NCBI GenBank assembly: GCA_017463225.1
Contig: JAFTPO010000036.1
Location: forward strand, 1 to 51,580
Source: Lachnospiraceae bacterium
Lineage (GTDB): Bacteria; Bacillota; Clostridia; Lachnospirales; Lachnospiraceae
Direction: 5' to 3'
DNA length: 51,580 nucleotides
Shown: piece after piece, positions 203-12,266 of the stretch
Numbering within the stretch: position 1 is the stretch's first letter
Layout: the number at the start of each line of letters is the position of its first letter
The notes under the pieces: model-generated
The model's database searches: none
Told to the model about the DNA's origin: nothing
What the model saw: the letters and a program-made list of their open reading frames with translations, nothing else
Translations under genes and position numbers: made by a program

Positions 203-901
203 CTACCACTCTATAGTTTCTTCTCTATTCTCCGATTTCTTCCTCATGACAATTTCAGTTACATTCTTACGCTCCTCATCACATCGAATTACTATCCAAT
301 CATCAAAATACGAAAATATATTCCTATATTTCTTCCAAAAATCATAGACAGGGTGGTCACTTTCTACCAAGGCCTGATACTCCGTATCTATATCTCTTCC
401 CTCTAATAAGGCCTTGAATTCCTCATCCTTCTGAGTATATTCATAATATATATAATGCAGAATGTCCCTCTGAAGCTGGCGTAAAAAGTCAAATTCATAA
501 TATCTTTCATCCAAATTATTATGAATCAACTCTAGTGGTATCTTAATTCTAAATGGACCTGGTTCAACATAATACCATTCCTGATCCAAATCATAAAAAT
601 ACCCGTAATCTATAAATGCAATTCTAGAGAATATCTCTCGTTCAGTTGTTCCCAAATGATGTGATGTTCCTGCTAACTCATGAGTATTTATCCAGGTTTC
701 TCCACCCTTTTCACTTCCCGGCTTACCCAGATGTCTTAACTCGCCTAATCCGAATAAATATTCTATTAAGTTATCATCCTTTTCATCATACCAACAGTAT
801 AGTCTATTACCTACTGACTGGTAATATCCACCATTTCCACTCCATCCGTATTGCACATGCCCATCCTTTAATCGTCTTGCGATTATACTTACGTCTCCCA
901 T
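203..901 (-). CDS. hypothetical protein, about 232 aa, under a palindrome-type promoter
   Basis: I do not recognise the family. The reading frame opens upstream, but the ATG at 901 has a textbook AAGGAGG six bases before it, so I start there. The protein is soluble-looking, rich in aromatic and acidic residues (many Y, W, D, E), with no signal peptide, membrane segment or obvious catalytic motif. The first residues (MGDVSIIARRLKDGHVQYGW) are followed by a Gly/Tyr-rich stretch. It is transcribed alone, from a promoter at 963-1007 that carries the same palindrome as three other promoters in this window. That shared control suggests it works with those genes, but its job is unknown. An immunity or defence-associated role is possible but not shown. 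Confidence 0.75.
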   Translation of the reverse strand: MGDVSIIARRLKDGHVQYGWSGNGGYYQSVGNRLYCWYDEKDDNLIEYLFGLGELRHLGKPGSEKGGETWINTHELAGTSHHLGTTEREIFSRIAFIDYGYFYDLDQEWYYVEPGPFRIKIPLELIHNNLDERYYEFDFLRQLQRDILHYIYYEYTQKDEEFKALLEGRDIDTEYQALVESDHPVYDFWKKYRNIFSYFDDWIVIRCDEERKNVTEIVMRKKSENREETIEW

Positions 902-962
902 ACTGTTCCTCCTTAGTATGTATTTCCAAAACAAACAACATGAATTAGAATAATATAAATCT

Positions 963-1007
963 ATTCTAATTTATGTCTTAATTATTGTCATTTAACCTGT
1001 AGTTAAA
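963..1007 (-). promoter_or_regulatory. palindrome-type promoter A (for 203-901)
   Basis: Minus strand: TTTAACTACAGGTTAAA, whose last A begins the -35 box ATGACA (986-991). A 17-bp spacer and the -10 box TAGAAT (963-968) follow. The inverted arms are TTTAAC and GTTAAA around TACAG. The site overlaps the stop codon of the gene at 1003. The same layout recurs at 3082-3127, 7545-7590 and 12221-12266. Confidence 0.7.
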
Positions 1008-1287
1008 TATTTACATTTTTCAATAATTCCACAAGCTCCTCATACTCATCTTCTGTTAACGACCTTTTCAGTCTATATTCATACCTAGGAGCACTTTCCA
1101 CATAGCGGTAATACCCATCACACAATTTCTTGTCGCAATAAAACACTTTATCTCCTCGATTAAAAGCTTCTATGGATAATCTGCATAATTCTCTTTCCTT
1201 GTACAGTTGAGGTTTTCCTGGATTTGCACTTACTGCTATGTATCCATTTGCAATGCATTTACAAAATATGTCACTTAGTTTTAACAT
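1003..1287 (-). CDS. hypothetical protein, 94 aa
   Basis: Small soluble protein of unknown family. The start ATG is preceded by AAAGGAG. It contains several cysteines (residues near 9, 11, 35, 51 and 56), including two near the N-terminus, but no clean zinc-ribbon spacing. The C-terminus is a charged helix (SLTEDEYEELVELLKN). It is the last gene of a run of minus-strand unknown genes starting at 3029, and its start overlaps the end of a possible 27-codon frame. Its stop codon lies inside the promoter palindrome of the next gene. Confidence 0.65.
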   Translation of the reverse strand: MLKLSDIFCKCIANGYIAVSANPGKPQLYKERELCRLSIEAFNRGDKVFYCDKKLCDGYYRYVESAPRYEYRLKRSLTEDEYEELVELLKNVNI

Positions 1288-1354
1288 TTTTAGCTCCTTT
1301 CTTATGCAAAGCTTGAATATATACTTTTTCTTTATAATCAGGTTTAGCTGTCAT
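1271..1354 (-). CDS. possible 27-aa small ORF, translationally coupled
   Basis: An AGGAGG precedes ATG-ACA-GCT at 1354 by 11 bases. The 27-codon frame reads MTAKPDYKEKVYIQALHKKG and a further seven residues before its stop. It overlaps the first 17 bases of the gene starting at 1287 in another frame. The basic, unstructured sequence has no recognised relatives. It could be a coupling peptide that loads ribosomes for the next gene, or a remnant. It rests only on the ribosome binding site and overlap. Confidence 0.35.
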   Translation of the reverse strand: MTAKPDYKEKVYIQALHKKGAKNVKTK

Positions 1355-1381
1355 AGCATCACATACCTCCTCTCGTGTTTT

Positions 1382-1837
1382 TTAATCCCAATATCCAACA
1401 ACCTTCCACTCAGACATCTGCCCACACTTACCACAAGGAACCTTTCTGAGATTCTCCATAGGCTTTGTCTCTTTATTACACTTGGGACAAAGTATAGTCT
1501 CCTCTTCCAACACTTCAAAATAATCTCCTATCAAGTGTGGAGGAACCATATCTGACTCGTCATACTCAAATTTAGACCCTTCCTTTGGAATATAAAATGA
1601 TTTCCTTGATTCTGTGCAATATTCCTTACACTCTTGGCAGTAACATAATGCCCTCTCAACAACTCCTGTTCCATCAGGATATTGCTCTATCAATGCTTTC
1701 CATCTTTCCCCCCACTGTCTGGCTCTCATTTGCTTTCTGGAGTCACAAGTTCTGGAAAAATCCTTAAAACCAGCTCCCTCCTTAAAATCATAGCTAAAGC
1801 TACAACCTTTATGACGGTATCTAATTATTCTTCCCAT
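1382..1837 (-). CDS. zinc-ribbon-containing hypothetical protein, 151 aa
   Basis: The C-terminal third has two CxxC pairs (CPKC and CGKC, about residues 117-138), the pattern of a zinc ribbon. A central CYCQEC and a further Cys about six residues on could form a second metal site. The N-terminus has no signal peptide or membrane segment. The start ATG is 14 bp downstream of the previous gene's stop and follows a GGGAGAGG-like site. The domain may bind nucleic acid or protein, but zinc ribbons are too general to give a function. It belongs to the four-gene unit read from the palindrome promoter at 3082-3127. Confidence 0.7.
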   Translation of the reverse strand: MGRIIRYRHKGCSFSYDFKEGAGFKDFSRTCDSRKQMRARQWGERWKALIEQYPDGTGVVERALCYCQECKEYCTESRKSFYIPKEGSKFEYDESDMVPPHLIGDYFEVLEEETILCPKCNKETKPMENLRKVPCGKCGQMSEWKVVGYWD

Positions 1838-1851
1838 ACTTACACCTCTCC

Positions 1852-2313
1852 CTACTTTAGTTCCTTTTCATATACCTCTTTAGTTACATCCATTAGCGTA
1901 TGTGTCTTTAAAAATTCTACCCACTTTCGCAGATTGAACTCCAACCTAGGTGGATTCAATGGATTGTATGGTTCAAAGTATTTCTCTGGAAATGGCATCT
2001 CTACATACATCTTCGGTATTCCATAATATTGTCTCTCTGACAACTCTTCATCCATTATGACAATGGTCGCAAAACCGTCACATTCCCTATCCAATGTCAC
2101 GAATAGATTACAGCTATAACGTTCTTGTATATCATCCATTTGCTTTAAATCATTAATATCTATAGTATATCTGATTTGCTTTTTTCCATGATAATCGGTT
2201 ATACTCTCCAAAGTTGCCTCATGACAAGGACTTGTACTTTCGTCATCCTCGTGTTTAATACCGTCCCTATCCCATCGATTTAACGTTGATGCTCTGGTTA
2301 TCAAACATTTCAT
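1852..2313 (-). CDS. hypothetical protein, 153 aa
   Basis: The frame extends upstream to a GTG at 2337, but the ATG at 2313 (MKCLITRASTLNRWDRDG) has an AGGAG 11 bases before it and is preferred. Either start overlaps or abuts the end of the gene at 2328, implying translational coupling. The protein is soluble and acidic, with alternating strand-like segments and a C-terminal segment containing KWVEFLKTHTLMDVTKEVYE. I do not recognise the family. It is the second gene of the unknown operon 3029-1003. Confidence 0.7.
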   Translation of the reverse strand: MKCLITRASTLNRWDRDGIKHEDDESTSPCHEATLESITDYHGKKQIRYTIDINDLKQMDDIQERYSCNLFVTLDRECDGFATIVIMDEELSERQYYGIPKMYVEMPFPEKYFEPYNPLNPPRLEFNLRKWVEFLKTHTLMDVTKEVYEKELK

Positions 2314-2327
2314 AATTCTCACAACTC

Positions 2328-3029
2328 CTAATCCCACAAATCCATAAAGTGCTCCTTCATCATATCGAAGAATTCATCCTTGCACTGATTTCTATACTCG
2401 CTAAGCTTCATATCCTCTTCCATATATCGTTTCTCAATCTCCGCATATTCCGGTGCATCCCTCATGGTATGCATCGTTGTATATCCGGATTTATTATCGC
2501 TTTCAATCTCCTCAGGAGTTCGAAGATTCACACCTAAGAATCCATACTTCTCCTCAAACTCTTTATGAGCCTCCAAATGTTCTTCTTCATATGGATTCTT
2601 TTTAGAACAACTATCCTCGTCCATCTCCTTAAGGAGAAATATCATATGATCAAGAACCTTATCCCATTCGGAGTGGCAGGTTTCATTCACCAATATGCCT
2701 CTCTCATCCACATAATCCTTCCCCAGGCGACTAGGTGAACCTAGGCGGTTGCCTCGATGATCCTGTAGCATCTCTAACATCAAACTTCGAAGATATTCGT
2801 GCATACGCCAACGATCCATATCACAATATCCTCGCTCAACACGTTGCTTGCTGTAGCGCACATATCTAAAAAAACACTTCACATAAGCAAATGGTTTGAA
2901 TTTACTACCTAAAGCAAACCAACCGAAGTTTTCCTTAGTCCACAATGCATTAACTGAATCCTCCTTAGTTTTTGCCTTTTTAATTCTTTTAATATTTTTC
3001 AAACTCTGAACATTACTATTCCCACTCAT
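2328..3029 (-). CDS. hypothetical protein, 233 aa, first gene of an unknown operon
   Basis: The open frame extends to 3110 but crosses the terminator of the gene before it. The ATG at 3029 (MSGNSNVQSLKNIKRIKKAK) has AAAGGAG eight bases upstream and is the real start. The protein begins with a lysine-rich tail, then has an aromatic/basic stretch (FKPFAYVKCFFRYVRYSKQR) and a long acidic helical C-terminus with many E/K residues. No signal peptide or family match is recognised. It heads the unit that continues with the genes at 2313, 1837 and 1287, driven by palindrome promoter B. Confidence 0.7.
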   Translation of the reverse strand: MSGNSNVQSLKNIKRIKKAKTKEDSVNALWTKENFGWFALGSKFKPFAYVKCFFRYVRYSKQRVERGYCDMDRWRMHEYLRSLMLEMLQDHRGNRLGSPSRLGKDYVDERGILVNETCHSEWDKVLDHMIFLLKEMDEDSCSKKNPYEEEHLEAHKEFEEKYGFLGVNLRTPEEIESDNKSGYTTMHTMRDAPEYAEIEKRYMEEDMKLSEYRNQCKDEFFDMMKEHFMDLWD

Positions 3030-3046
3030 CACAATTACTCCTTTAC

Positions 3047-3103
3047 ATACAAAAAACTTCCCTAGAACTAAATATACTTTAATTCTAGAGAAGTTTTTTG
3101 TAT
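3047..3103 (-). terminator. strong hairpin terminator after the flavodiiron gene
   Basis: Arms 3047-3067 and 3083-3103 pair over 21 positions with one mismatch around a 15-nt loop. On the minus strand the 3' arm ends in a T-run, so the hairpin terminates transcription arriving from 3132. A-rich and T-rich flanks make it symmetrical. The right arm also contains the -10 box of promoter B. Confidence 0.85.
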
Positions 3104-3127
3104 TTGTCATTTAACGTGTGGTTTAAA
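3082..3127 (-). promoter_or_regulatory. palindrome-type promoter B (for the 3029-1003 operon)
   Basis: Minus strand: TTTAAACCACACGTTAAA abuts the -35 box ATGACA (3105-3110). A 17-bp spacer and TAGAAT (3082-3087) follow. The palindrome sits 5 bp from the flavodiiron stop codon. The centre (CCACACG) differs from CTACAGG in the other copies, but the arms, -35 box and spacing are kept. Confidence 0.65.
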
Positions 3128-3131
3128 ACTA

Positions 3132-4283
3132 CTAAGCCAGCTCCTTAGCAAGTGCCTCAAGCTGCGCTTTACTATCCTCATTAAGGGCAGACATAATCTT
3201 AACCTCTGACTCAGCATAAGTCAGATTTTTACTCTTTTCCAACATACCCTTCATCACTTTAGTAGCAGTTGGCGCCCAGCTGCCATTTTCTATAAAACCA
3301 ACTGTTCTGTTGCTGTAATTCCTCTCGGTGATAGCATCTATAAAGTGTCTCATAAATGGGAAGATATCTCCGTTATAAGTAGTTGTTGCAAGCACCAGTT
3401 TACTGTAGCGGAATGCATCCTCTACTACCTCAGCCATATCCTCTCTGGCAAGGTCATTGACCACAACCTTTGGACAACCATTTGCCTTTAACATATCAGC
3501 CAATTCCATAACAGCCTTTTTAGTATTTCCATAAACTGAGGTGTAGGCAATCATAACACCCTCCTCCTCAGGTCTATAGCTTGACCAAGTGTCATAAAGG
3601 TTGATGTAATAGCCAAGATTCTCAGTTAAAATAGGTCCGTGAAGAGGACAGATAAACTGAATATCAAGGGCTGCTGCCTTCTTCAAAAGTGTCTGTACAG
3701 GAAGTCCATACTTTCCAACGATTCCGATATAATATCTTCTAGCTTCACAAGCCCAATCCTCCTCTACATCCAGAGCACCAAACTTACCGAAGCCGTCTGC
3801 TGAGAATAAAACCTTGTCAGTACTGTCATAGGTAACTATAACCTCTGGCCAGTGCACCATAGGTGCTGCCACGAAGTTAAGCTCATGCTTTCCAAGGGAA
3901 AGCTTGTCTCCCTCACCTACAACCACCTGCTTGTCTGCAAAATCATCTCCGAAGAAATTCTTCATCATAACAAATGCCTTTGCAGAGGATACAACTTTAG
4001 CCTCAGGATAAGCATTGACAAAGCTTACTATATTTGCAGAATGGTCTGGCTCCATATGCTGAACTACTAAGTAATCCGGCTTTCTGTCACCTAAAGCATT
4101 CTTAATATTTCCAAGCCACTCATCTCCAAATGCAGCATCTACAGAATCCATAATGGCAATCTTCTCATCCACTATGGCATATGAATTGTAGGCCATACCA
4201 TTTGGCACGATGTACTGGCCCTCAAACAGGTCGATATTATGGTCATTAACTCCAACGTATAAAATATCTTGTGTAATAGTCAT
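3132..4283 (-). CDS. fprA: A-type flavodiiron protein (oxygen/NO reductase)
   Basis: Flavodiiron proteins reduce O2 to water, or NO to N2O, in the cytoplasm of anaerobes, protecting oxygen-sensitive enzymes. The N-terminal metallo-beta-lactamase-like domain carries the diiron ligands H76-x-E78-x-D80-H81, H144, D163 and H215. From about residue 245 a flavodoxin domain has the FMN phosphate loop TSVYGNT (248-254). The length of 383 aa is normal for a two-domain FprA without fused rubredoxin. The start has AAAGGAAG upstream. It has its own promoter region and a strong terminator. The electron donor (rubredoxin or NADH oxidoreductase) is not in the window. The family assignment is firm; preference for O2 or NO cannot be read from sequence. 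Confidence 0.93.
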   Translation of the reverse strand: MTITQDILYVGVNDHNIDLFEGQYIVPNGMAYNSYAIVDEKIAIMDSVDAAFGDEWLGNIKNALGDRKPDYLVVQHMEPDHSANIVSFVNAYPEAKVVSSAKAFVMMKNFFGDDFADKQVVVGEGDKLSLGKHELNFVAAPMVHWPEVIVTYDSTDKVLFSADGFGKFGALDVEEDWACEARRYYIGIVGKYGLPVQTLLKKAAALDIQFICPLHGPILTENLGYYINLYDTWSSYRPEEEGVMIAYTSVYGNTKKAVMELADMLKANGCPKVVVNDLAREDMAEVVEDAFRYSKLVLATTTYNGDIFPFMRHFIDAITERNYSNRTVGFIENGSWAPTATKVMKGMLEKSKNLTYAESEVKIMSALNEDSKAQLEALAKELA

Positions 4284-4308
4284 GTGTAAAAACTTCCTTT
4301 CTATGTAT

Positions 4309-4342
4309 TCTCATAGGTAGTTATATTATAACACTCTATGAG
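4309..4342 (-). promoter_or_regulatory. possible fprA promoter inside an inverted repeat
   Basis: A minus-strand TATAAT lies between the arms CTCATAG and CTATGAG, upstream of the fprA start. No good -35 box is seen, which would fit an activator-dependent promoter, or the arms could be a repressor operator. Support is only the symmetry and position. Confidence 0.35.
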
Positions 4343-4361
4343 CTAAATTAGCTCTGGTATA

Positions 4362-4778
4362 TTATGACATCTGCTTAAGCTTAGCACTTATAATCCCATA
4401 AGCCGTCTCTGCATCATCTGTCTCAAGAGTAGCTGCCTCAAATGGACACATACCATCGCCCTTTCGATTAATAATATATTCAGCTATCTGGCCATACTCT
4501 ACAGCTATATCATACTTCTTAAAAACTGCCAACGCAGCCTGACTTATAACCTTGGCATAGACCGCTTTAACGCCCATCAGCACATATAGGAATGCTGTAG
4601 CCTTTCCAACTACCTTGTCCGCCGCATAGTAGCCTTTAAAATCCTGACCTGACTCCAGCCAGTTTACCAAAGGTCGTACTCCACGCTGCTCAGACACCTG
4701 CACATCCTGCTCCTTGCACAATACACAGGTGTATCCACCAGCTAGCAAATGCTCCTTCGCCTTCTCTAACTCAATCAT
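4362..4778 (-). CDS. DUF1893 domain protein
   Basis: The 138-aa protein matches the DUF1893 family in length and in its typical start (a helix followed by a TCVLCK strand) and its KATAFLYVLMGVKAVYAKV segment. Structures of the family have a cytidine-deaminase-like fold, but no enzyme activity is known to me. Its ATG overlaps the stop of the aldo/keto reductase by one base (TAATG), so the two are translationally coupled. Family members often sit beside ferredoxin-type aldo/keto reductases, which suggests a redox-linked role. Family confident, function unknown. Confidence 0.85.
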   Translation of the reverse strand: MIELEKAKEHLLAGGYTCVLCKEQDVQVSEQRGVRPLVNWLESGQDFKGYYAADKVVGKATAFLYVLMGVKAVYAKVISQAALAVFKKYDIAVEYGQIAEYIINRKGDGMCPFEAATLETDDAETAYGIISAKLKQMS

Positions 4779-5908
4779 TACTTTAACCTCTCCACGAAAT
4801 CACTCATCATCTCGCTGATTTTAATATTCTGTGGACATACTGCCTCGCAGGCTCTACATCCGATGCAAGCTGACGGCTTCTTATCCTCAGGAAGTGCGCC
4901 AATAGCCATAGGAGCCAGGAATCCTCCACCTGAATATACATGCTCATTGTACAGGTCTATAAGATCTGGAATATTTAACTCCATAGGGCAGTGAGTGGTA
5001 CAATATCTACAGGCTGTACAAGGAAGTGTATCCTTGGAAGTCATAGCTGTAGCAACCTGAAGAAGCGTATCTTTCTCCTCGTTATTTAAAGCATTTTCAG
5101 CCTCGTATGTAGCTATATTTTCCTTTAACTGCTCAAGGTTAGACATACCTGAGAGAGTCATCTTAACCTCCGGAATGGACTGCACAAATCTAAATGCCCA
5201 CTCTACCACTGTGGCATCAGGGCGAGCCGCCTTAAGTCTCTCCTCATACTCAGGCTCAAGTCCTGCCAGCTTTCCGCCACGAACAGGCTCCATAACCCAC
5301 ACAGGAAGACCATATTCCTTAAGAAGCTCAACCTTACCCTTTGCATTCTGCATCTTCCAGTCAAGCCAATTAAGCTGTATCATACAAAACTCCATGTGCT
5401 CACCATAGGCATCCAAAAAGCGCTTCATAGTGGCCAATGTGCCATGCGAAGAAAAACCAAGATGACGAATACGTCCATTCCTCTTTTGCTCCAACAGATA
5501 CTCCAATATGCAATACTGTGGCTCCAAATATCCATCTATATTTAACTCGCACACATTGTGGAACAGATAAAAATCAAAATAATCCACCTGACACTTCTTA
5601 AGCTGCTCTTCAAATATCTCCTCCACCTTACCCATATTCGCAAGGTCATAGCCCGGAAATTTTGTAGCCAGATAAAAGCTGTCACGAGGATAGCTCTTCA
5701 ATATCTCACCTATAACTGTCTCTGAATTACCATCGTGATAACCCCATGCAGTATCAAAATAGTTAATACCCTTCTCAAATGCATAGTCTATCATCTCTCT
5801 GGTAGCCTCAACATCTATCTGATTAAAATCATCTCCCTGCACCGGCAAGCGCATACACCCTAAACCAAGAGCTGAAAGCTTTATGTCTTGAAAGTTATTG
5901 TAAATCAT
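4778..5908 (-). CDS. aldo/keto reductase with C-terminal 4Fe-4S ferredoxin domain
   Basis: The N-terminal 280 residues form the aldo/keto reductase barrel, with the catalytic tetrad D52, Y57, K83 and H117 visible in FDTAWGYHDG, ATKFPG and YLFHN. The C-terminal part has two cysteine clusters (CTACRYCTTHCP and CIGCRACEAVCP), enough for two iron-sulfur clusters. Such fusions are common in anaerobic Firmicutes and probably pass electrons between a carbonyl substrate or NAD(P)H and ferredoxin-like partners. The substrate is not known. GGGAGG precedes the ATG. It forms an operon with the DUF1893 gene downstream. Confidence 0.92.
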   Translation of the reverse strand: MIYNNFQDIKLSALGLGCMRLPVQGDDFNQIDVEATREMIDYAFEKGINYFDTAWGYHDGNSETVIGEILKSYPRDSFYLATKFPGYDLANMGKVEEIFEEQLKKCQVDYFDFYLFHNVCELNIDGYLEPQYCILEYLLEQKRNGRIRHLGFSSHGTLATMKRFLDAYGEHMEFCMIQLNWLDWKMQNAKGKVELLKEYGLPVWVMEPVRGGKLAGLEPEYEERLKAARPDATVVEWAFRFVQSIPEVKMTLSGMSNLEQLKENIATYEAENALNNEEKDTLLQVATAMTSKDTLPCTACRYCTTHCPMELNIPDLIDLYNEHVYSGGGFLAPMAIGALPEDKKPSACIGCRACEAVCPQNIKISEMMSDFVERLK

Positions 5909-5997
5909 ACTGTAGCCTCCCTTCTGTGGGATATTTTATCAGTTTTTGAGGTGGATTGAAAGAGGGAGCGAAGTTGTACACTCCAAAGTATCATTTA

Positions 5998-6594
5998 TTA
6001 TCTTCCTCTATACTCCTCTATCTCCTGTCTGATGGTAGTGTAGTCTCTATCCATAAGCTCTTCATAATAGCAGCTCCACAGTACCTCCTCAGGCAGCTTC
6101 TCTATAAGCTTCTTTCTTACAAAGTCCTTGGACTTATCCTTATACTTAGGAAGCTTATTTCTCTCCTGTATGCGGGCTAGCTCCGGTCTCCACAGAAGAC
6201 TTAGCTTTTTATTAGCCTTGACCTTAGGATTTGGTTGTGGCTTTCTAAGATAATAAAAATCCAGTGTGCCTGCTATTTCCTCAATGGTTATGATTCCCCA
6301 CCACTCAGGCACGTGTTCACTGATGTGAGCAGCATGAGTGCTTCCTACCGCCACTATATTGTAATCAAAGAAGCGGTTGTACACCTTTACCTGATTAGCC
6401 AGCCTGGTATAGGTATCATTATCGCTTTTTATCTCTATGCCGTAGATGCTATCCGGTCTCACCATAACCACATCAGCTCTAGCCCTGTCTATGGTCAGCT
6501 CCTCAATAATTCGATTTATGGGATATATCTCATCCAGGTATTCAAATAACGCCTCTCTTATATCACTGTCGTGGGATGCTAATGTTTGTCCCAT
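5998..6594 (-). CDS. sce7726 family protein (PD-(D/E)xK nuclease-like)
   Basis: The 198-aa sequence has the hallmark order of the sce7726 family: DIREALFEYL near the N-terminus, RARADVVMV, GIEIKSDNDTYTRL, and HVPEWWGIIT. The D in ADVVMV and the E-x-K in GIEIKSD fit a PD-(D/E)xK nuclease core, so a DNA-directed function is plausible though not demonstrated. A GGAG site lies before the ATG. It follows the unknown gene 6614-7477 by 19 bp and shares its palindrome-type promoter. This makes it the only regulon member here with a recognisable enzymatic fold. Confidence 0.85.
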   Translation of the reverse strand: MGQTLASHDSDIREALFEYLDEIYPINRIIEELTIDRARADVVMVRPDSIYGIEIKSDNDTYTRLANQVKVYNRFFDYNIVAVGSTHAAHISEHVPEWWGIITIEEIAGTLDFYYLRKPQPNPKVKANKKLSLLWRPELARIQERNKLPKYKDKSKDFVRKKLIEKLPEEVLWSCYYEELMDRDYTTIRQEIEEYRGR

Positions 6595-6613
6595 ATCCTT
6601 TCTCCTTACATTC

Positions 6614-7477
6614 TTAATCTAAACCATATTTGCGTGAAATCTCATCTAAGACCTCATCGAAATCTTCACATTCACTTACATCATACTGATAGATACGAAC
6701 CTGAGCGCCATCCCAAGGAAGCGTAAAAGTCTCTCCAGGTTTTATCTTATTGTTATTTATAGAAATATCCCATTCCGTAATATTCTTGATGACAGCCTGG
6801 GTAGTATTATCGCTCCACATATAGGTCTCGTAACAACGGAACATGCTATCATGATATCTAAAATCAATATACAATTCATCCTGTTCCCCACGATATTTTG
6901 TGTAATGTACACTATCACTGTAGGTACCTACAGAAAGCTTAGGCTCAATAATTCCCACCTTATCCCCTATATGATAAGCCATCAAGTTATCATTGCCTAT
7001 GTTCTGCCATTCAATATACAATGAATTCTCATACTTCATAGCCTCTTCCATAAGGTGATTTCTGTATAATTTACCCATGGTATCAAGCTCCTTTTGGCCC
7101 TCCTCCTGAAGCTTAAGTATTCGTTTTGCCAGCTGTCCTTTCCATCTGCCTATTGTAAGCTGGGCTGAAGCAGATATTACGGCATCCACCTTGCTATCAC
7201 TTTTCTTAGACAGCTTAGAAAGTTTCTTAGCATACTTCTTGTCCATTCCTTCATAGGGATTAATACACATGTATTTCAAGGGACACACATAGCGATTCTC
7301 CTCTGTTTCACAGATAAGTATATCATCCGAGATGGTATCTGTCGACATTCTAAATCTAACTTCAACACCTGCATTTCTTCCTATATATGGTGCATATTCA
7401 GCGGTTCCCTTCAGTATATATTCTCCCTCGTAGACAGATAATGTCCAGCTTCTCATATTTATATTATTCTTGCTCAT
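6614..7477 (-). CDS. hypothetical protein, 287 aa, partner of the sce7726 gene
   Basis: No family is recognised. The N-terminal half is strand-rich (RSWTLSVYEGEYILKGTAEY), the middle is a lysine-rich helical stretch (about residues 75-140, with KKYAKKLSKLSKKS) and the C-terminal half is again strand-rich and ends with a helix (FDEVLDEISRKYGLD). There is no signal peptide or membrane segment. It lies 19 bp upstream of the sce7726 gene and is preceded by palindrome promoter C, so the pair forms one transcription unit. Confidence 0.72.
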   Translation of the reverse strand: MSKNNINMRSWTLSVYEGEYILKGTAEYAPYIGRNAGVEVRFRMSTDTISDDILICETEENRYVCPLKYMCINPYEGMDKKYAKKLSKLSKKSDSKVDAVISASAQLTIGRWKGQLAKRILKLQEEGQKELDTMGKLYRNHLMEEAMKYENSLYIEWQNIGNDNLMAYHIGDKVGIIEPKLSVGTYSDSVHYTKYRGEQDELYIDFRYHDSMFRCYETYMWSDNTTQAVIKNITEWDISINNNKIKPGETFTLPWDGAQVRIYQYDVSECEDFDEVLDEISRKYGLD

Positions 7478-7544
7478 AATCCTTCTCCTTATATAATATA
7501 TTTCACCATCTAAAATCCAACTAATATTTTAATCTCATACTATT

Positions 7545-7590
7545 ATTGTAATCCATCTCGTCACAGCAGGCACTAAACCTGTAGTTGAAA
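7545..7590 (-). promoter_or_regulatory. palindrome-type promoter C (for 7477-5998)
   Basis: Minus strand: TTTCAACTACAGGTTTA runs into the -35 box GTGCCT (7568-7573). Exactly 17 bp follow before the -10 box TACAAT (7545-7550). The ACTACAGGTTTA core is identical to that of promoter D. The poor -35 box suggests that the palindrome-binding protein activates here. Confidence 0.65.
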
Positions 7591-7632
7591 AAACAAAAAA
7601 ATATACCCGCCGGCCCCATACCGACGAGTATA
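7590..7632 (-). terminator. terminator of the SDR gene
   Basis: Arms 7602-7613 and 7621-7632 form a 12-bp stem on the minus-strand RNA (two G-U pairs), followed by a T-rich run (7590-7601 read on minus). It lies downstream of the SDR stop at 7723 and upstream of promoter C. Confidence 0.85.
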
Positions 7633-7722
7633 CCTTTCTCCTTTGTAACCTCTCCCTTATATAAAACATATGTCATTAGACACCTAAAGGCATCTCCCAC
7701 AAAATGACATTATGCATATATA

Positions 7723-8472
7723 CTAATTATAAATACTTCCCTTCTTGCTCTCCACCATATCAACAGCCTGCTCTAAAGTCATGCCGTGATAATCTCCTGC
7801 TGAGAACAATCTTCCTGAACGCTTATCATCTGCAAATACACCAAGCACAACTCCAGGCAATGCACTCTCAGGAGCATTTGGTGCCTTGTCTCCACCTAAG
7901 TCTGTTCTACACCAGCCTGGGTCAGCTAAGTTAATCATAACATCTGTTCCCTCTACTGTAGAGCCAAGATCTATGGTTATCTTATCAAGTGCAGCCTTGC
8001 TGGCAGAATATCCGGCCTGCTGTGGCTCAAGTCTTATACCACTGGTTGTATTCACTATTCTTCCAAAGCCACGCTTAATCATCTGTGGCATAAAATGATA
8101 GCATATCATAGCCGGTGCTATGGTATTTATCTTGAAGCTCTCTGTATAGTCTGATACAGGTGTATCAAAGTACTCTGTTCTATATGCAATCTGCATTCCC
8201 GCGTTGTTAAGAACAAAATCAATCTGAGTTCCTATAGCTTCTATCTCGTCTAACATAGACTTTACACTATCCAAATCTGAAAGCTCTGCAGCTACTCCAT
8301 AGGCCTCAACATTGTTCTCCTTGGCAACCTTCATTATACCATCCAAATGCTCTATACTTCTGCTTTGCAACACAAGGTTACATCCCTGCTTAGCAAGAAG
8401 CTCTGCTACCAAATATCCGATTCCTCTGGATGCACCTGTTACAAACGCCCATTTTCCTCTAACCTCAGTCAT
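7723..8472 (-). CDS. short-chain dehydrogenase/reductase
   Basis: A 249-aa cytosolic NAD(P)-dependent oxidoreductase. The glycine motif TGASRGIG (residues 12-19), NNAG, the catalytic serine in NTTSGI and YSASK (Tyr and Lys) are all present, so it should be active. The frame opens at 8508, but the ATG at 8472 has CAGGAGG close upstream and gives the usual SDR N-terminus. It is monocistronic, with a terminator downstream. The substrate cannot be predicted; family members act on sugars, alcohols, steroids or acyl carriers. Confidence 0.92.
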   Translation of the reverse strand: MTEVRGKWAFVTGASRGIGYLVAELLAKQGCNLVLQSRSIEHLDGIMKVAKENNVEAYGVAAELSDLDSVKSMLDEIEAIGTQIDFVLNNAGMQIAYRTEYFDTPVSDYTESFKINTIAPAMICYHFMPQMIKRGFGRIVNTTSGIRLEPQQAGYSASKAALDKITIDLGSTVEGTDVMINLADPGWCRTDLGGDKAPNAPESALPGVVLGVFADDKRSGRLFSAGDYHGMTLEQAVDMVESKKGSIYN

Positions 8473-8625
8473 ATAATATCCTCCTGAATATCTTACACAT
8501 CTACACAATAAGTTGAATTTTAAACTTATATCTTATATATTATATTACAATTTTATCAAAAAAAATATAACAAATCTAGCTTTCAACATTATTCGATAGT
8601 ATAAATCTATTTTATTGAGGATATT

Positions 8626-8640
8626 GTCATAGCTTATGAC
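8626..8640. repeat. perfect 15-bp palindrome GTCATAGCTTATGAC
   Basis: GTCATA and TATGAC flank a GCT centre. The site is 154 bp upstream of the SDR start and downstream of the coiled-coil gene. It could be an operator for the SDR gene; nothing else supports that. Confidence 0.3.
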
Positions 8641-8699
8641 TATATACATACATCTAGAATCTACTGATTACGCCCAATAATATCCGGTTATTTCTCTAC

Positions 8700-9092
8700 C
8701 TACGCAACATCTGATGCAATTCTTTCCTGTACCACCGGTGTCTCAAACACCTTACTATAGCTATGTTCCAGTATCTTTGCCAATCTGTCACAATCTATCT
8801 TTCTGGTCATCTCAATGCAGCAGTTAAGCTCATGTTCCTTAGACTTCTTAATATTTCTAAGCATCTTAAGCTCTTTGAACACCTTATAGCTATCCACCTG
8901 CTTATAGCTCTCTGACTCAATCCTATAAAGGATATCCTCTATATCTGCTCCAATCTCTGCTATATCTATCTTAAGATTGTATATATGCTGCTTCACATCT
9001 CTGTAAAACTCCATCTGCTGCTTAGCAAATCGCTTAATATCGATATCCTCTCTGTCAAATGTTGTGGTAATTCTCTCTACGCTTGTACTCAT
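8700..9092 (-). CDS. coiled-coil hypothetical protein, 130 aa
   Basis: The upstream in-frame ATG at 9101 has no room for a ribosome binding site, so I place the start at 9092 (MSTSVERITTTFDREDIDIK), with AAAGGA upstream. The protein is almost wholly helical with heptad-like spacing of I/L/V (about residues 20-115), suggesting a coiled coil. There is no signal peptide or membrane helix. No family is recognised. Its upstream region contains the 62-bp repeat array. Confidence 0.65.
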   Translation of the reverse strand: MSTSVERITTTFDREDIDIKRFAKQQMEFYRDVKQHIYNLKIDIAEIGADIEDILYRIESESYKQVDSYKVFKELKMLRNIKKSKEHELNCCIEMTRKIDCDRLAKILEHSYSKVFETPVVQERIASDVA

Positions 9093-9231
9093 AATAATCA
9101 TCCTTTCTTGTGCCTGTGTCTTCTTGGTTAACCATGTCTTCTTCTGTATTATCTCGCAGGACCAGTCCTATAAAACGTACTTTATAATATGGTTTTTACA
9201 TCAAAACGACCACCAATCCCCTTATTTTAGT

Positions 9232-9534
9232 CGCAAACGCCTACTTTTTGGGCATAGACTGTTGTTTTCATCCATCCACGCCCAAATTCTCCCTCAAATC
9301 CGTCATTTCCTGGGCATAGATTGTTCTTTTTCCTCATCCACGCCCAAATTATGCAACAAAAACTTCGTTTTTTGGGCATAGATTCCTCTTTTCATCCATC
9401 CACGCCCAAATTCCACCACAAATCCGTCATTTTTTGGGCATAGACCGCTCTTTTCACTCATCCACGCCCAAATTCCACCACAAATCCGTCATTTTTTGGG
9501 CATAGATTGCACTTTTCACTCATCCACGCCCAAA
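9232..9534. repeat. five-copy 62-bp tandem repeat array, non-coding
   Basis: The core GGGCATAG begins at 9250, 9312, 9374, 9436 and 9498, an exact 62-bp period. Each unit has TTTGGGC and GCCCAAA arms about 26 bp apart, joined by a T-rich segment (CTCTTTTCACTCATCCAC type). Linkers such as CCACCACAAATCCGTCAT are nearly identical in the last copies and diverge in the first. A period not divisible by three and stops in each frame argue against coding. The array fills most of the gap between 9092 and 9635. Confidence 0.92.
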
Positions 9535-9573
9535 AGGGCAAGCGTTCAAGAAAGAAATCCCTGTAGCAAACGC

Positions 9574-9607
9574 AAAAAGGGATAGAATCCATATAGGATT
9601 CTATCCC
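9574..9607 (-). terminator. terminator of the EF-G-like gene
   Basis: Perfect arms GGGATAGAATCC (9579-9590) and GGATTCTATCCC (9596-9607) with a 5-nt loop. On the minus strand the stem is followed by TTTTTGCGTTTG. It is 28 bp beyond the stop codon. Confidence 0.9.
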
Positions 9608-9634
9608 GCTATATATTACTTATTATATGAAGCT

Positions 9635-11725
9635 CTAGTCTTCCTTATCCTCAGCTACCTTGTTAGCTCTAGCCTCAACCTCAGCCTTCTGGATATCGCT
9701 AGGAGCCTGCTCATATCTTGAGAACTCGTAGGAGTAATCACCTCTACCACCTGTCATGGCTCTAAGGATTGTACAGTATCCTGTAAGCTCCATAAGAGGT
9801 ATATCTGCCTCTATCATCTGCTTACCCTTACCATTTGGATTCATACCGAGAACTCTACCTCTACGCTTATTTAAGTCACCCATAATATCTCCGGTATACT
9901 GCTCTGGAACTACAACCTTTAAGCTAACGATTGGCTCAAGGAGAATAGGTCCTGCTTCCATGATACCCTTCTTTAATGCCTGAGAGGCTGCCTTCTTGAA
10001 TGCCATCTCAGAAGAATCAACTGCGTGGTAAGAACCATCATAAAGTACCGCATTGATACCTACTACAGGATATGCTGCTAAAGGTCCTCTCTCACAAGCC
10101 TCCTGAATACCCTTCTCAACTGCCGGGAAGAAGTTCTTAGGAACTGCTCCACCTACAACCTCCTGGCTAAACTCGTAAGCCTTATCAGTATCACCAAGTG
10201 GTGCAAATCTCATCTTTACGTGACCATACTGTCCGTGTCCACCTGACTGCTTCTTATACTTATACTCTACATCAGAATTCTTCTTTATAGTCTCCTTAAA
10301 TGCAATCTTTGGCTTGCTTAGTTCTATCTCACACTTGTACTCATTCTCTAATCTGCTTTGAACTATCTCAAGCTGCTTCTCACCTATTCCGTAAAGGAGG
10401 AGCTGCTTATTCTCAGCATCATTTACCACCTTAAGTGTCTGGTCCTCATGAGTCATCTTCTGAAGTGACTGAGCTACCTTGTCGATGTTGTTCTTGTTAG
10501 GAACCTTATATCTCATAAATGTATATGGCTTAGATATCTCAAACTTACCATACTCGATGACACAAGCCTTAGTTGAAAGTGTATTACCGGTTCTGGCTGC
10601 AGTGAGCTTTGCTATAGCTCCGATATCTCCTGCATGAAGCTCCGGAACTTCGATAGACTTGCCACCCTGAAGAACATAGAGCTTACTAACCTTCTCCTCT
10701 ATATCCTTATCCTTGTTGTAAATCATATCATCTGACTTAAATACACCTGAGCAAACCTTAATCAATGAGTACTTACCGATAAATGGATCTACAATAGTCT
10801 TAAATACATATGCTGACTTAGGCTTAGCAAAATCATAATTCGCCTCAAACACCTCGTTAGTCTTCATATTAAATCCTGCAATCTCCTTGTTCTCAGGACT
10901 TGGAAGATACTTAACGATATCATCTATAAGTGTGAATGTACCCTGATTCAAAAGGTTTGAACCCATAGAAATAGGTACGATACTACCATCTATAACGTTA
11001 GTTCTAAGAGCTGCACGAATCTCCATCTCTGAGAAGGTATCTCCACTGAAATATCTATCCATAAACTCTTCACTTGTCTCAGCTACAGCCTCCATAAGGG
11101 TTTCCTTATAAAGGTCTAAGTTCTCTCTACTGTATTCCGGAATATCACACTCGCTAACCTCGCTGCCATTCCAACGATTACCTGTCTCACTGATAACATT
11201 TATGTATCCTACAAACTTCTCATTCTCTCTAATAGGGAAATGGAAAGGTGCAATCTTCTTGCCATACATCTCTGTAAGCTTCTCTACTACGTTCTTAAAT
11301 GATGCGTTATCTGCATCCATACCTGTAACGTATATCATGCGAGGAAGCTTATACTTCTCACAAAGCTCCCATGCTCTCTCAGTTCCAGCCTCAACACCGG
11401 CCTTACCTGATACTACTATAATAGCTGCATCTGCTGCACTTATAGCCTGCTCAACCTCTCCGATAAAATCAAAATATCCAGGAGTGTCCAGTATATTAAT
11501 CTTTACACCGTTCCACTCGATAGGAACAACTGATGTACTTATGGATATCTGTCTCTTCTGCTCTTCCTTACCGAAGTCACTTACGGTGTTACCGTCGTCG
11601 ACCTTGCCCGGTCTCTTGGTAATGCCTGCCAGATAAGCCATTGACTCAACCAAACTGGTTTTTCCTGAGCCACTATGACCTAATAAAACTACGTTTCTAA
11701 TCTTGTCCGTTGTGTAAACATTCAT
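9635..11725 (-). CDS. elongation factor G-like translational GTPase (EF-G paralogue)
   Basis: The 696-aa protein has full EF-G architecture: a GTPase domain with P-loop GHSGSGKTS, switch/G3 DTPGYFDF, beta-barrel domain 2, and domains III-V including the conserved GQYGHVKMR region. The start at 11725 (MNVYTTDKIRNVVLLG) has AGGAGG eight bases upstream. The usual G4 motif NKxD is replaced by TGMD (in MIYVTGMDADN), so nucleotide handling may differ from canonical EF-G. Ribosomal proteins and EF-Tu are absent nearby, which also marks it as a paralogue rather than housekeeping fusA. Likely roles are ribosome recycling, rescue or stress translation. It is monocistronic with a terminator. Confidence 0.9.
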   Translation of the reverse strand: MNVYTTDKIRNVVLLGHSGSGKTSLVESMAYLAGITKRPGKVDDGNTVSDFGKEEQKRQISISTSVVPIEWNGVKINILDTPGYFDFIGEVEQAISAADAAIIVVSGKAGVEAGTERAWELCEKYKLPRMIYVTGMDADNASFKNVVEKLTEMYGKKIAPFHFPIRENEKFVGYINVISETGNRWNGSEVSECDIPEYSRENLDLYKETLMEAVAETSEEFMDRYFSGDTFSEMEIRAALRTNVIDGSIVPISMGSNLLNQGTFTLIDDIVKYLPSPENKEIAGFNMKTNEVFEANYDFAKPKSAYVFKTIVDPFIGKYSLIKVCSGVFKSDDMIYNKDKDIEEKVSKLYVLQGGKSIEVPELHAGDIGAIAKLTAARTGNTLSTKACVIEYGKFEISKPYTFMRYKVPNKNNIDKVAQSLQKMTHEDQTLKVVNDAENKQLLLYGIGEKQLEIVQSRLENEYKCEIELSKPKIAFKETIKKNSDVEYKYKKQSGGHGQYGHVKMRFAPLGDTDKAYEFSQEVVGGAVPKNFFPAVEKGIQEACERGPLAAYPVVGINAVLYDGSYHAVDSSEMAFKKAASQALKKGIMEAGPILLEPIVSLKVVVPEQYTGDIMGDLNKRRGRVLGMNPNGKGKQMIEADIPLMELTGYCTILRAMTGGRGDYSYEFSRYEQAPSDIQKAEVEARANKVAEDKED

Positions 11726-11775
11726 GCTAGCTACCTCCTGATACATTATATTTAGTTATAAACTACTGTATATAA

Positions 11776-11804
11776 TTTTACTTCATATAACCTATATATT
11801 CAAG
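11776..11804 (-). promoter_or_regulatory. probable promoter of the EF-G-like gene
   Basis: On the minus strand TTGAAT is followed after 17 bp by TAAAAT, about 50-80 bp upstream of the ATG at 11725. The boxes match the consensus moderately; the flank is very AT-rich, so chance matches are possible. Confidence 0.4.
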
Positions 11805-11900
11805 GAAAATTATACAAAAATCACATATTTTTTTGTTGATTTTAGATTTTTGTATACAAAATAACGAATTTTATGGTATGAGGCTAAATTGCTACTCTTA

Positions 11901-12173
11901 TCATCTGTTTATAAAAATAGGAGAAGCGGATGCCCCTCTACGGTCATCCGCTCCTTTTATAATATCATCAATTGGAGTATTGAGTAATCTGCTTAAAGCA
12001 TAGAGATTATCGATGGAAGGAATGGACTCCCCTCTCATCCACTTGTATATGGCCTGTGGATTCTCAAATCCCATAAATTCTCTAACCTCATTAACTGAGA
12101 TTCGATTACTTCTACATAGTTCCTTGATTCGTCTGCCGGTTGCTAAAGTGTCAATGACTGGATACTCTGTCAT
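11901..12173 (-). CDS. small XRE-family helix-turn-helix regulator
   Basis: A 90-aa DNA-binding protein. Residues about 14-70 form an XRE/Cro-type helix-turn-helix (GRRIKELCRSNRISVNEVRE, then a recognition segment NPQAIYKWMRGESIPSIDNL and LLNTPIDDII). There is no sensor or effector domain. The ATG has AAAGGAGG upstream. It is monocistronic, between the terminator of the DMT gene and its own terminator, which lies partly inside its last codons. Its promoter carries the palindrome shared by three unknown transcription units here, so it is the best candidate for the protein that binds that palindrome, with autoregulation. That link is inferred from position only. Confidence 0.88.
   Translation of the reverse strand: MTEYPVIDTLATGRRIKELCRSNRISVNEVREFMGFENPQAIYKWMRGESIPSIDNLYALSRLLNTPIDDIIKGADDRRGASASPIFINR
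11915..11954 (-). terminator. terminator embedded in the 3' end of the XRE gene
   Basis: GGAGCGGATG (minus strand, 11945-11954) pairs with CATCCGCTTCTCC (11920-11932) around a 12-nt loop, with a two-base bulge. TATTTTTAT follows. The stem encodes the last residues of the regulator, before its stop at 11901. Confidence 0.8.
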
Positions 12174-12220
12174 GCAAAATGCCTCCTTTGTTGAACAAAT
12201 AAACTACACCAACATATACG

Positions 12221-12266
12221 ATGATATCATTATTACAAAATTTTGTCATTAAACCTGTAGTTTAAA
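12221..12266 (-). promoter_or_regulatory. palindrome-type promoter D (for the XRE gene)
   Basis: Minus strand: TTTAAACTACAGGTTTAA abuts the -35 box ATGACA (12244-12249). A 17-bp spacer and TATCAT (12221-12226) follow. This is the best-preserved copy of the palindrome and lies in front of the regulator gene itself. Confidence 0.72.

Follow-up and report, generated by a model that had tools for sequence, protein, structure and literature searches.

A palindromic promoter element associated with small XRE-family regulators and a candidate RNA-repair and proteostasis regulon in a Lachnospiraceae genome

Why should four promoters on one strand of a single contig carry the same palindrome, and which protein is likely to read it? 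The question is raised by contig JAFTPO010000036.1 of the Lachnospiraceae bacterium assembly GCA_017463225.1, which was analyzed as one stretch of 51,580 nucleotides (the window) and belongs, as contig C30, to a 2.77-Mb draft genome (G000; C, G, and L followed by a number denote a contig, a genome, and a fetched locus or stretch, respectively). A first-pass annotation of this DNA had described the four palindromes, each adjoining a −35 box with 17 bp to a −10 box, and had proposed a regulon of unknown genes under a 90-amino-acid (aa) XRE-family protein encoded behind one of them. We propose that a small XRE-family regulator uses the palindrome, TTnAACyACnnGTTnAA, as its operator and that the 90-aa protein (11901 to 12173, minus strand) represents this regulator in the window. 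It would control its own gene and about 22 promoters of its genome, most likely as a class II activator of an RNA-repair and proteostasis regulon. This is the best overall explanation of the sequence evidence and, in our judgment, a reasonably probable one.

The pattern TTTAAACTACAGGTTTAA, with up to three mismatches, matched the window at exactly four positions, all on the minus strand (991 to 1008, 3110 to 3127, 7573 to 7590, and 12249 to 12266); shuffling gave an expectation of 0.11 matches, and none of 100 shuffles reached four. The first site (963 to 1008) comprises the palindrome TTTAACTACAGGTTAAA (991 to 1007), the −35 slot ATGACA, 17 bases, and the −10 box TAGAAT (963 to 968), and it overlaps the stop codon of an open reading frame (ORF) at 1003 to 1287. 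The second (3082 to 3127) has the palindrome TTAAACCACACGTTAAA (3110 to 3126), again with ATGACA, 17 bases, and TAGAAT (3082 to 3087). At the third (7545 to 7590), the palindrome TTCAACTACAGGTTTAG (7573 to 7589) is followed by the slot GTGCCT, which matches the −35 consensus at three of six positions, 17 bases, and TACAAT (7545 to 7550). The fourth, the promoter of the XRE gene (12221 to 12266), carries the palindrome TTAAACTACAGGTTTAA (12249 to 12265), ATGACA, 17 bases, and TATCAT (12221 to 12226). The four palindromes were thus borne out at every coordinate, with the −35 slot directly adjoining the palindrome and a spacing of exactly 17 to the −10 box, and the start codons lie 70 to 90 bases beyond the slot.

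The earlier count of four sites was far too low for the genome, which has 22 sites with the same geometry. With up to three mismatches, the full motif occurs at eight places in the genome, and a reversed control pattern occurs at none. A search with the palindrome alone, requiring neither a −35 nor a −10 box, returned 41 rows representing 35 distinct places, compared to 5 rows for the reversed control. All 13 exact places and 9 of the 22 one-mismatch places have a hexamer of the form TA...T starting exactly 22 bases downstream of the palindrome; for the one-mismatch places, the fixed −10 distance was itself the criterion for counting as a promoter. The 13 and the 9 together make the 22 candidate promoters. 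One orientation was counted per place (the reverse of C42:12512 also has TA...T at the offset and was left uncounted), and the C69 and C89 places, apparently one duplicated sequence, were counted as two. If a per-site rate of 0.036 is assumed, 13 of 13 at a fixed distance has a chance of ∼2e-19; a rate of 0.08 gives 5e-15. The palindrome was defined without any promoter feature, and all 13 exact copies have a −10-like box; the operator therefore marks a promoter-like hexamer at one distance. Genome-wide recurrence with fixed geometry supports the shared control that had been predicted. Chance origin of the palindromes was rejected on the shuffles, the reversed control, and the fixed −10 distance genome-wide, and a terminator or hairpin reading was set aside because the position relative to the −10 box is fixed. 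Identity with the sites of LexA, Rex, CcpA, CIRCE, or CtsR was rejected on consensus sequences only.

How might a protein bound at this position act? If the −35 slot is placed at −35 to −30, the palindrome would be centered near −43, from where an XRE dimer could touch region 4 of sigma. The −35 sequences themselves vary: measured against TTGACA, the slots of the 22 promoters match at five of six positions in seven, four in six, three in six, and two in three. Because the distance from operator to −10 box is fixed while the −35 sequences vary, class II activation is suggested, in keeping with the lean toward activation in the first-pass annotation. Lambda CI, an XRE-fold protein, sits near −42 at PRM and activates through contact with sigma; it differs in belonging to a phage switch, with multiple operators and a separate dimerization domain. 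The main rival, which we regard as rather unlikely, keeps the same regulon and the XRE regulator and makes the latter a repressor that would cover the −35 region and be released under stress. The seven promoters with a five-of-six −35 box speak against activation, as a repressor would fit them too; together with an extended −10 TG preceding the −10 box in 25 of 63 sites from the GTDB scan described below, they indicate that some promoters could fire unaided, and the solved sequence relatives of the XRE protein include the repressors P22 C2 and DdrOC. A repressor, however, needs neither a fixed operator/−10 distance nor a weak −35 box, and 9 of the 22 slots match at three positions or fewer.

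The element recurs in other genomes. Among 61 genomes, sites with up to two mismatches are present in 13, the source genome included. Outside the source genome, 16 of 20 sites have a −10 box at 17, the other four being two-mismatch matches; these 20 sites form two sets, with the −10 box at 17 in 14 of 14 and 2 of 6. A sample of 294 genomes of the order, searched with up to one mismatch, gave 27 sites in 11 genomes (10 of the 27 belonging to the source genome), compared to 2 control hits, and the exact form of the motif is patchy across the order. An exact scan of GTDB found 63 stretches with the full motif and 65 sites, counts that include the likely chance hits L101, L110, and L132. By record title, 39 are Lachnospiraceae or members of that family (33 Lachnospiraceae, 4 Pseudobutyrivibrio, 1 Agathobacter, and 1 Lachnoclostridium); the others include six spirochetes (four of them Treponema or Treponemataceae), Oscillibacter, and Pseudoflavonifractor. 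The GTDB and G-labeled sets overlap, L134 lying in the same contig as G013:C10. When the 65 sites were collapsed to 63 unique downstream sequences, TA...T stood at offset 17 in 49, compared to an average of 2.0 for all remaining offsets. The two free arm positions of the motif are palindromic in 26 of 63, versus 15.8 by permutation (p 0.0008).

Two clusters of copies were seen among these genomes. L135 (Treponemataceae RUI404) has three exact motif copies within 2 kb, two preceding uncharacterized genes of 214 and 233 aa and the third lying near the end of the stretch. In G242 (C6:127728-132432), four sites of a variant motif, TTTATACTACAAGTTCAATGAC, lie within 5 kb; the variant is also found in G203, G218, G302, and G322 and once in G182.

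Several lines of evidence connect the palindrome with XRE proteins. First, as the first-pass annotation had anticipated, the motif recurs beside XRE relatives: these are encoded (E ≤ 1e-8) in 33 of the 63 GTDB stretches, where about 1 is expected from a density of ∼0.014 XRE per 8 kb in the source genome. The XRE gene lies downstream on the same strand in 14, upstream on the same strand in 14 (10 of these overlap the site or end no more than 60 bases from it), and on the opposite strand in 5. Second, G013, G031, and the source genome, which hold the closest XRE orthologues, are the only 3 of the 61 genomes with at least four sites, and in G013 and G031 a site precedes the XRE gene, as the site at 12244 to 12266 precedes the gene at 11901 to 12173. 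Third, the palindrome varies with the recognition helix: a QS[IV]Y[HR]W helix accompanies a TTTGAAC site in 6 of 7 cases versus 1 of 29 other XREs (Fisher 2.4e-5; 36 hand-sorted rows of XREs with a site within 1.5 kb, the QSIYHW of L131 having been read by eye). Fourth, 19 of 24 motif genomes without an XRE in the fetched stretch have one elsewhere in the assembly (E 1e-15), versus 10 of 28 controls (p 0.002); this check covered 27 of the 30 XRE-less stretches (L100, L107, and L114 were left out, L114 having an XRE at 1.1e-8), and three genomes that are likely chance hits (0 of 3) are excluded from the 19 of 24. Among the 61 genomes, an XRE is present in 6 of 13 with the motif and 5 of 48 others (p 0.008). 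Because of the linkage in 33 of 63 stretches and because the helix class goes with the palindrome variant, the XRE family very probably binds the palindrome, and the site before the XRE gene of the window, with its recurrence at XRE relatives and the partial covariation of palindrome and helix, supports the predicted self-control.

That some other factor binds the palindrome, with XRE genes merely frequent targets, is improbable. It would be favored by the XRE gene of the window and the many others that lie directly downstream of a site, and by the 5 of 24 motif genomes that have no XRE at E 1e-15 in the whole assembly. However, the XRE gene is upstream of or opposite to the site in 19 of the 33 linked stretches, the palindrome changes, if imperfectly, with the XRE recognition helix, and no other regulator family with such linkage was seen among the downstream genes surveyed. 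Those five genomes also count against XRE proteins as binders, and they do not stand alone: an XRE is present in 10 of 28 control genomes of the family that lack the motif, the overlap among the 61 genomes is only moderate, L148 places QSIYHW beside TTTAAAC, and L102 places QAVYKY beside a G-type site. Further, the helix and motif classes follow phylogeny, so that the p values overstate independence, and near-duplicate stretches (L118, L127, and L133) mean that the counts are not independent events. Finally, the sites could be shared by two or more XRE paralogues of the genome. The source genome has eight XRE matches in all, and since one paralogue (C43) lies behind such a site and another (C67) is associated with a different palindrome, the assignment of paralogues to sites is ambiguous. 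Linkage and partial covariation favor the 90-aa protein as a candidate regulator.

Many XRE relatives have no nearby canonical site, with no match better than in shuffled sequence, and five such loci hold instead a palindrome of a second, TTATACC class. This palindrome, TTATACCACnnGTATAA, is present in exact form in four of six loci encoding an XRE with a TPQAIYKW helix (L025, L083, L096, and L097); L138 has a hybrid palindrome, and none was found in L067. The order of palindrome, RtcB gene, and TPQAIYKW XRE gene occurs in three loci (G013, G031, and G009), with a DUF2828/DUF7788 protein after the RtcB and XRE genes in G009. The pairing of TPQAIYKW with the second palindrome is only suggestive, because NPQAVYKW XREs also lie near or just upstream of the TTATACC site in L083, L096, and L097, because L056 has a QSIYHW XRE with a TTATACC palindrome, and because L067 lacks the palindrome. 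The neighboring NPQAVYKW genes and L056 weigh against the proposed correspondence of regulator and site. The −10 box of this class, which lies at 17 in three of the loci and at 18 in another three, also counts against the overall explanation. The C67 paralogue of the source genome (G000:C67:21770-21985; L025:5768-6019) has the TPQAIYKW helix, ends in ...ELSA, and has a TTATACCACTGGTATAA palindrome ∼400 bases upstream, which suggests a parallel regulon in the same cell. XRE relatives in related and distant gut bacteria, some of other specificity, would share the promoter architecture.

What would such a regulon control? Families of the predicted targets were assigned by Pfam and NCBIfam, and the gene downstream of C67:5313 was left out. 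Besides the 90-aa XRE gene and three operons of the window (C30), the targets comprise a second small XRE of 117 aa (C43); clpP (C80), tig-clpP-clpX (C1), and ftsH (C86), each behind a one-mismatch site with the fixed geometry; a DEAD helicase whose RecQ zinc domain scores below cutoff, and an AAA protein behind a second site (both C31); another AAA protein (C86) that resembles, by eye and in shared Pfam domains, the protein behind a G031 site; a T4-type RNA ligase (C95), whose site lies 303 bases away; a calcineurin-like phosphatase and, after it, an AAA_33 protein (C48); a GHKL/HSP90-type ATPase that scores below cutoff in Pfam (C42); a DUF1835/DUF3658 protein together with a MYG1 gene (C13); a Uma2 protein (C13); a type IV secretion system (T4SS) coupling protein alongside a ClpP-like protein, and a 464-aa uncharacterized protein from its own site (both C43); a member of family D1 (C42); and uncharacterized genes (C62 and C67). 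The description of a regulon of unknown genes therefore holds for the operons of the window; genome-wide, the set also includes clpP, tig-clpP-clpX, ftsH, an RNA ligase, and a helicase.

Among the first to fourth genes behind the GTDB sites, small XRE genes, D1 (first gene in six stretches), and D2 recur. RtcB was found in L149 (by Pfam) and in L117 and L160 (by eye), and DUF2828/DUF7788 proteins, which we take to be Ro60-like, in L149 and L120. ClpP is present in L141 (Pfam) and in L119 and L152 (phmmer), ClpB in L103 (cut at the stretch end), PARG/TIGR02452 in L138 and, by eye, L140, and ArfB as the third gene in L140. SLFN_AlbA_2 (L118), PIN7 (L113), AAA_15 (L150), and calcineurin-like phosphatases as second or third genes (L114 and L108) complete the list. 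Where targets could be identified, most concern protein quality control, RNA repair, or ribosome rescue in tendency; many others are uncharacterized.

Least probable is that the sites belong to a scattered mobile-element or prophage (CI-like) control system, to which the C43 sites beside the T4SS coupling-protein gene and XRE relatives on Ligilactobacillus plasmids, on a Ruminococcus albus plasmid, and in phage records would point, as the core genes tig-clpP-clpX and ftsH carry a one-mismatch site and only 4 exact hits were found in 2.9 million viral contigs. The XRE gene of the window has an EF-G paralogue and an EamA transporter as neighbors, and no phage genes of a prophage CI-type cluster were seen in its neighborhood, the rest of which was read by eye. 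Phage origin was also rejected on the nature of the viral hits: L189 is a simple repeat, L191 is a bacterial-type XRE locus, and L188 and L190 (IMG/VR contigs) have the exact motif before the same short gene (MKECKALNFLIDVAYRN...), with no −10 box at the usual distance by eye. The last two could represent a phage borrowing a host site. The plasmid relatives are on NZ_CP102520.1 and 32 further Ligilactobacillus plasmid records, with ∼50% identity in the rows shown. One quick scan of the XRE regions of the R. albus plasmid, an L. salivarius plasmid, and a phage record gave no perfect palindrome with the expected −10 box.

The likely purpose of the regulon would be an inducible RNA-repair and proteostasis response, in which the XRE regulator may control tig-clpP-clpX, a second clpP, ftsH, a RecQ-like helicase, a T4-type RNA ligase, and many uncharacterized operons, and its counterparts in relatives may control RtcB, DUF2828 proteins, ClpB, ClpP, and PARG, among others. 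Plausibly, the system responds to the level of free Clp protease, as ClgR does, by way of the C termini of the many relatives that end in alanine (Ala). The Clp gene regulator ClgR of actinobacteria, the known system nearest in its logic, activates clpP1P2 and itself and is degraded by ClpP1P2, its C-terminal AA or VA (APVVSLAVA in mycobacteria) being a Clp degron that gives feedback (PMC5352834). The likeness lies in a helix-turn-helix regulator, here a small XRE with a site at its own gene, clpP, tig-clpP-clpX, and ftsH, and in Ala C termini, found in 24 of 60 XRE relatives versus 6 of 79 other genes, related proteins not being independent. Because these ends resemble the degraded AA or VA ends of ClgR, a Clp feedback loop in the Ala-ending relatives is a fair guess. 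The XRE protein of the window ends in ...SPIFINR and has no Ala end of the Clp-degron kind, which is a point against Clp as its sensor; for this reason, its input may differ, or it may act through a paralogue. Other differences from ClgR are the occurrence in Clostridia and spirochetes, the several paralogues, and the RNA-repair and many accessory targets. The ClgR palindrome also differs from the one reported here. No ClgR-named model was among the NCBIfam hits and no ClgR-named chain was among the PDB hits; ClgR was not compared directly.

Two other systems are similar in part. RtcR regulates an RNA repair operon (rtcBA, Rsr/Ro60) that encodes RtcB and, in some bacteria, a Ro60 orthologue as well (PMC7790460), and G009 likewise has a site followed by RtcB, the XRE gene, and a DUF2828/DUF7788 protein. 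In contrast, RtcR carries a CARF domain and belongs to the sigma54 enhancer-binding proteins, whereas here the −10 boxes resemble the sigma70 type and the linked regulator consists of an XRE domain only. Such −10 boxes lie 17 to 18 bases behind the palindrome before RtcB (L083, L096, L097, L117, L149, and L160). DdrO, of the DdrO/IrrE radiation response, is an XRE protein that controls itself. The DdrO regulon shares, as here, one conserved promoter motif and differs in that DdrO is a repressor removed by IrrE cleavage (PMC5552922). The regulator described here would work like ClgR within a DdrO-like regulon layout, with membership in neither system claimed. More broadly, and on balance slightly doubtfully, we suggest a family of small XRE activators running parallel stress regulons within one cell, with partly different palindromes and a single promoter architecture, that join RNA repair (RtcB, RNA ligase, DUF2828 proteins, and ArfB), Clp/FtsH proteostasis, and a large set of exchangeable uncharacterized genes in Lachnospiraceae, Oscillospiraceae, and Treponema, Clp turnover serving as the sensor in many.

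The result would be a large and apparently undescribed set of coregulated promoters in gut bacteria. Among the papers listed by full-text searches of literature outside subscription, none described the motif or regulon in its title or the beginning of its abstract, and none of the passages matched by a term search of the C. phytofermentans start-site paper described the motif. To our knowledge, stress circuits have been little studied in Lachnospiraceae and Treponema of the rumen and gut. The specificity of the motif lets candidate regulons be read off a genome; the proposal would link RNA repair with proteolysis under one switch and name a regulator, and it gives a first functional handle on many genes without a Pfam family (D1, D2, and the operons of the window). 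The pairs of helix and palindrome form a set for studying how XRE proteins choose DNA.

Family D1 (∼171 aa; L022:6730-7236 and homologues) is the commonest recognized non-XRE first gene. It has no Pfam match and matched no NCBIfam family (0 families); a provisional label, DIP1984, gained no support from NCBIfam. An AlphaFold model of D1 (mean predicted local distance difference test [pLDDT] 87.7) matches PDB 3kdq, a Corynebacterium diphtheriae protein of unassigned function (TM 0.72/0.79; E 1.3e-4). When D1 genes were found independently of the motif, a site was present in 5 of 7, within the genus; no canonical site was found upstream of the G012 and G032 genes, and these two count against the overall explanation. 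Of the nine matches in this search, seven were judged, with G060 and a second G012 fragment left out.

In the window, the product of the gene at 11901 to 12173 matches Pfam HTH_3 (E 1.1e-8; 35.4 bits versus a cutoff of 23; residues 16 to 71), confirming that the fourth site precedes a helix-turn-helix gene. Behind site 3 lie, on the minus strand, genes for a 287-aa protein of unassigned function (6614 to 7477), which has a homologue in the G013 locus L083 ∼3.8 kb downstream of the nearest site found, and for a 198-aa protein (5998 to 6594), whose earlier assignment to the sce7726 type was upheld (NCBIfam 165 bits versus a cutoff of 70) and which matches the PADLOC model cll (E 3.3e-15). The first gene of operon 2, behind site 2 (2328 to 3029, minus strand), encodes a 233-aa protein found in the source genome only among the 61 genomes searched and in 3 of the 63 motif-fetched stretches: L153, ∼1 kb behind another site; L143, with no site with a −10 box within 4 kb upstream; and L150, as a 66-aa piece. 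The further genes of this operon (1852 to 2313, 153 aa; 1382 to 1837, 151 aa; 1003 to 1287, 94 aa; all minus strand) have no Pfam family. Behind site 1, the 232-aa protein of unassigned function (203 to 901, minus strand) is weakly homologous to a protein encoded in a G022 locus with an XRE gene (L068; E 9.9e-13), and no site was found upstream of the gene there. Eight other proteins tested in 203 to 9101, the sce7726 protein included, gave no Pfam family above cutoff.

Directly after the XRE gene lies an EF-G paralogue (9638 to 11725; NCBIfam NF009381, 851.7 bits). The order of XRE gene and EF-G paralogue recurs in G013 (L082), and because of this shared order, the two may be functionally linked. 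Between the EF-G paralogue and the ORF at 8700 to 9101 is an intergenic tandem array (9245 to 9534) of 4.7 copies of a 62-base unit (or 2.3 copies of a 124-base unit).

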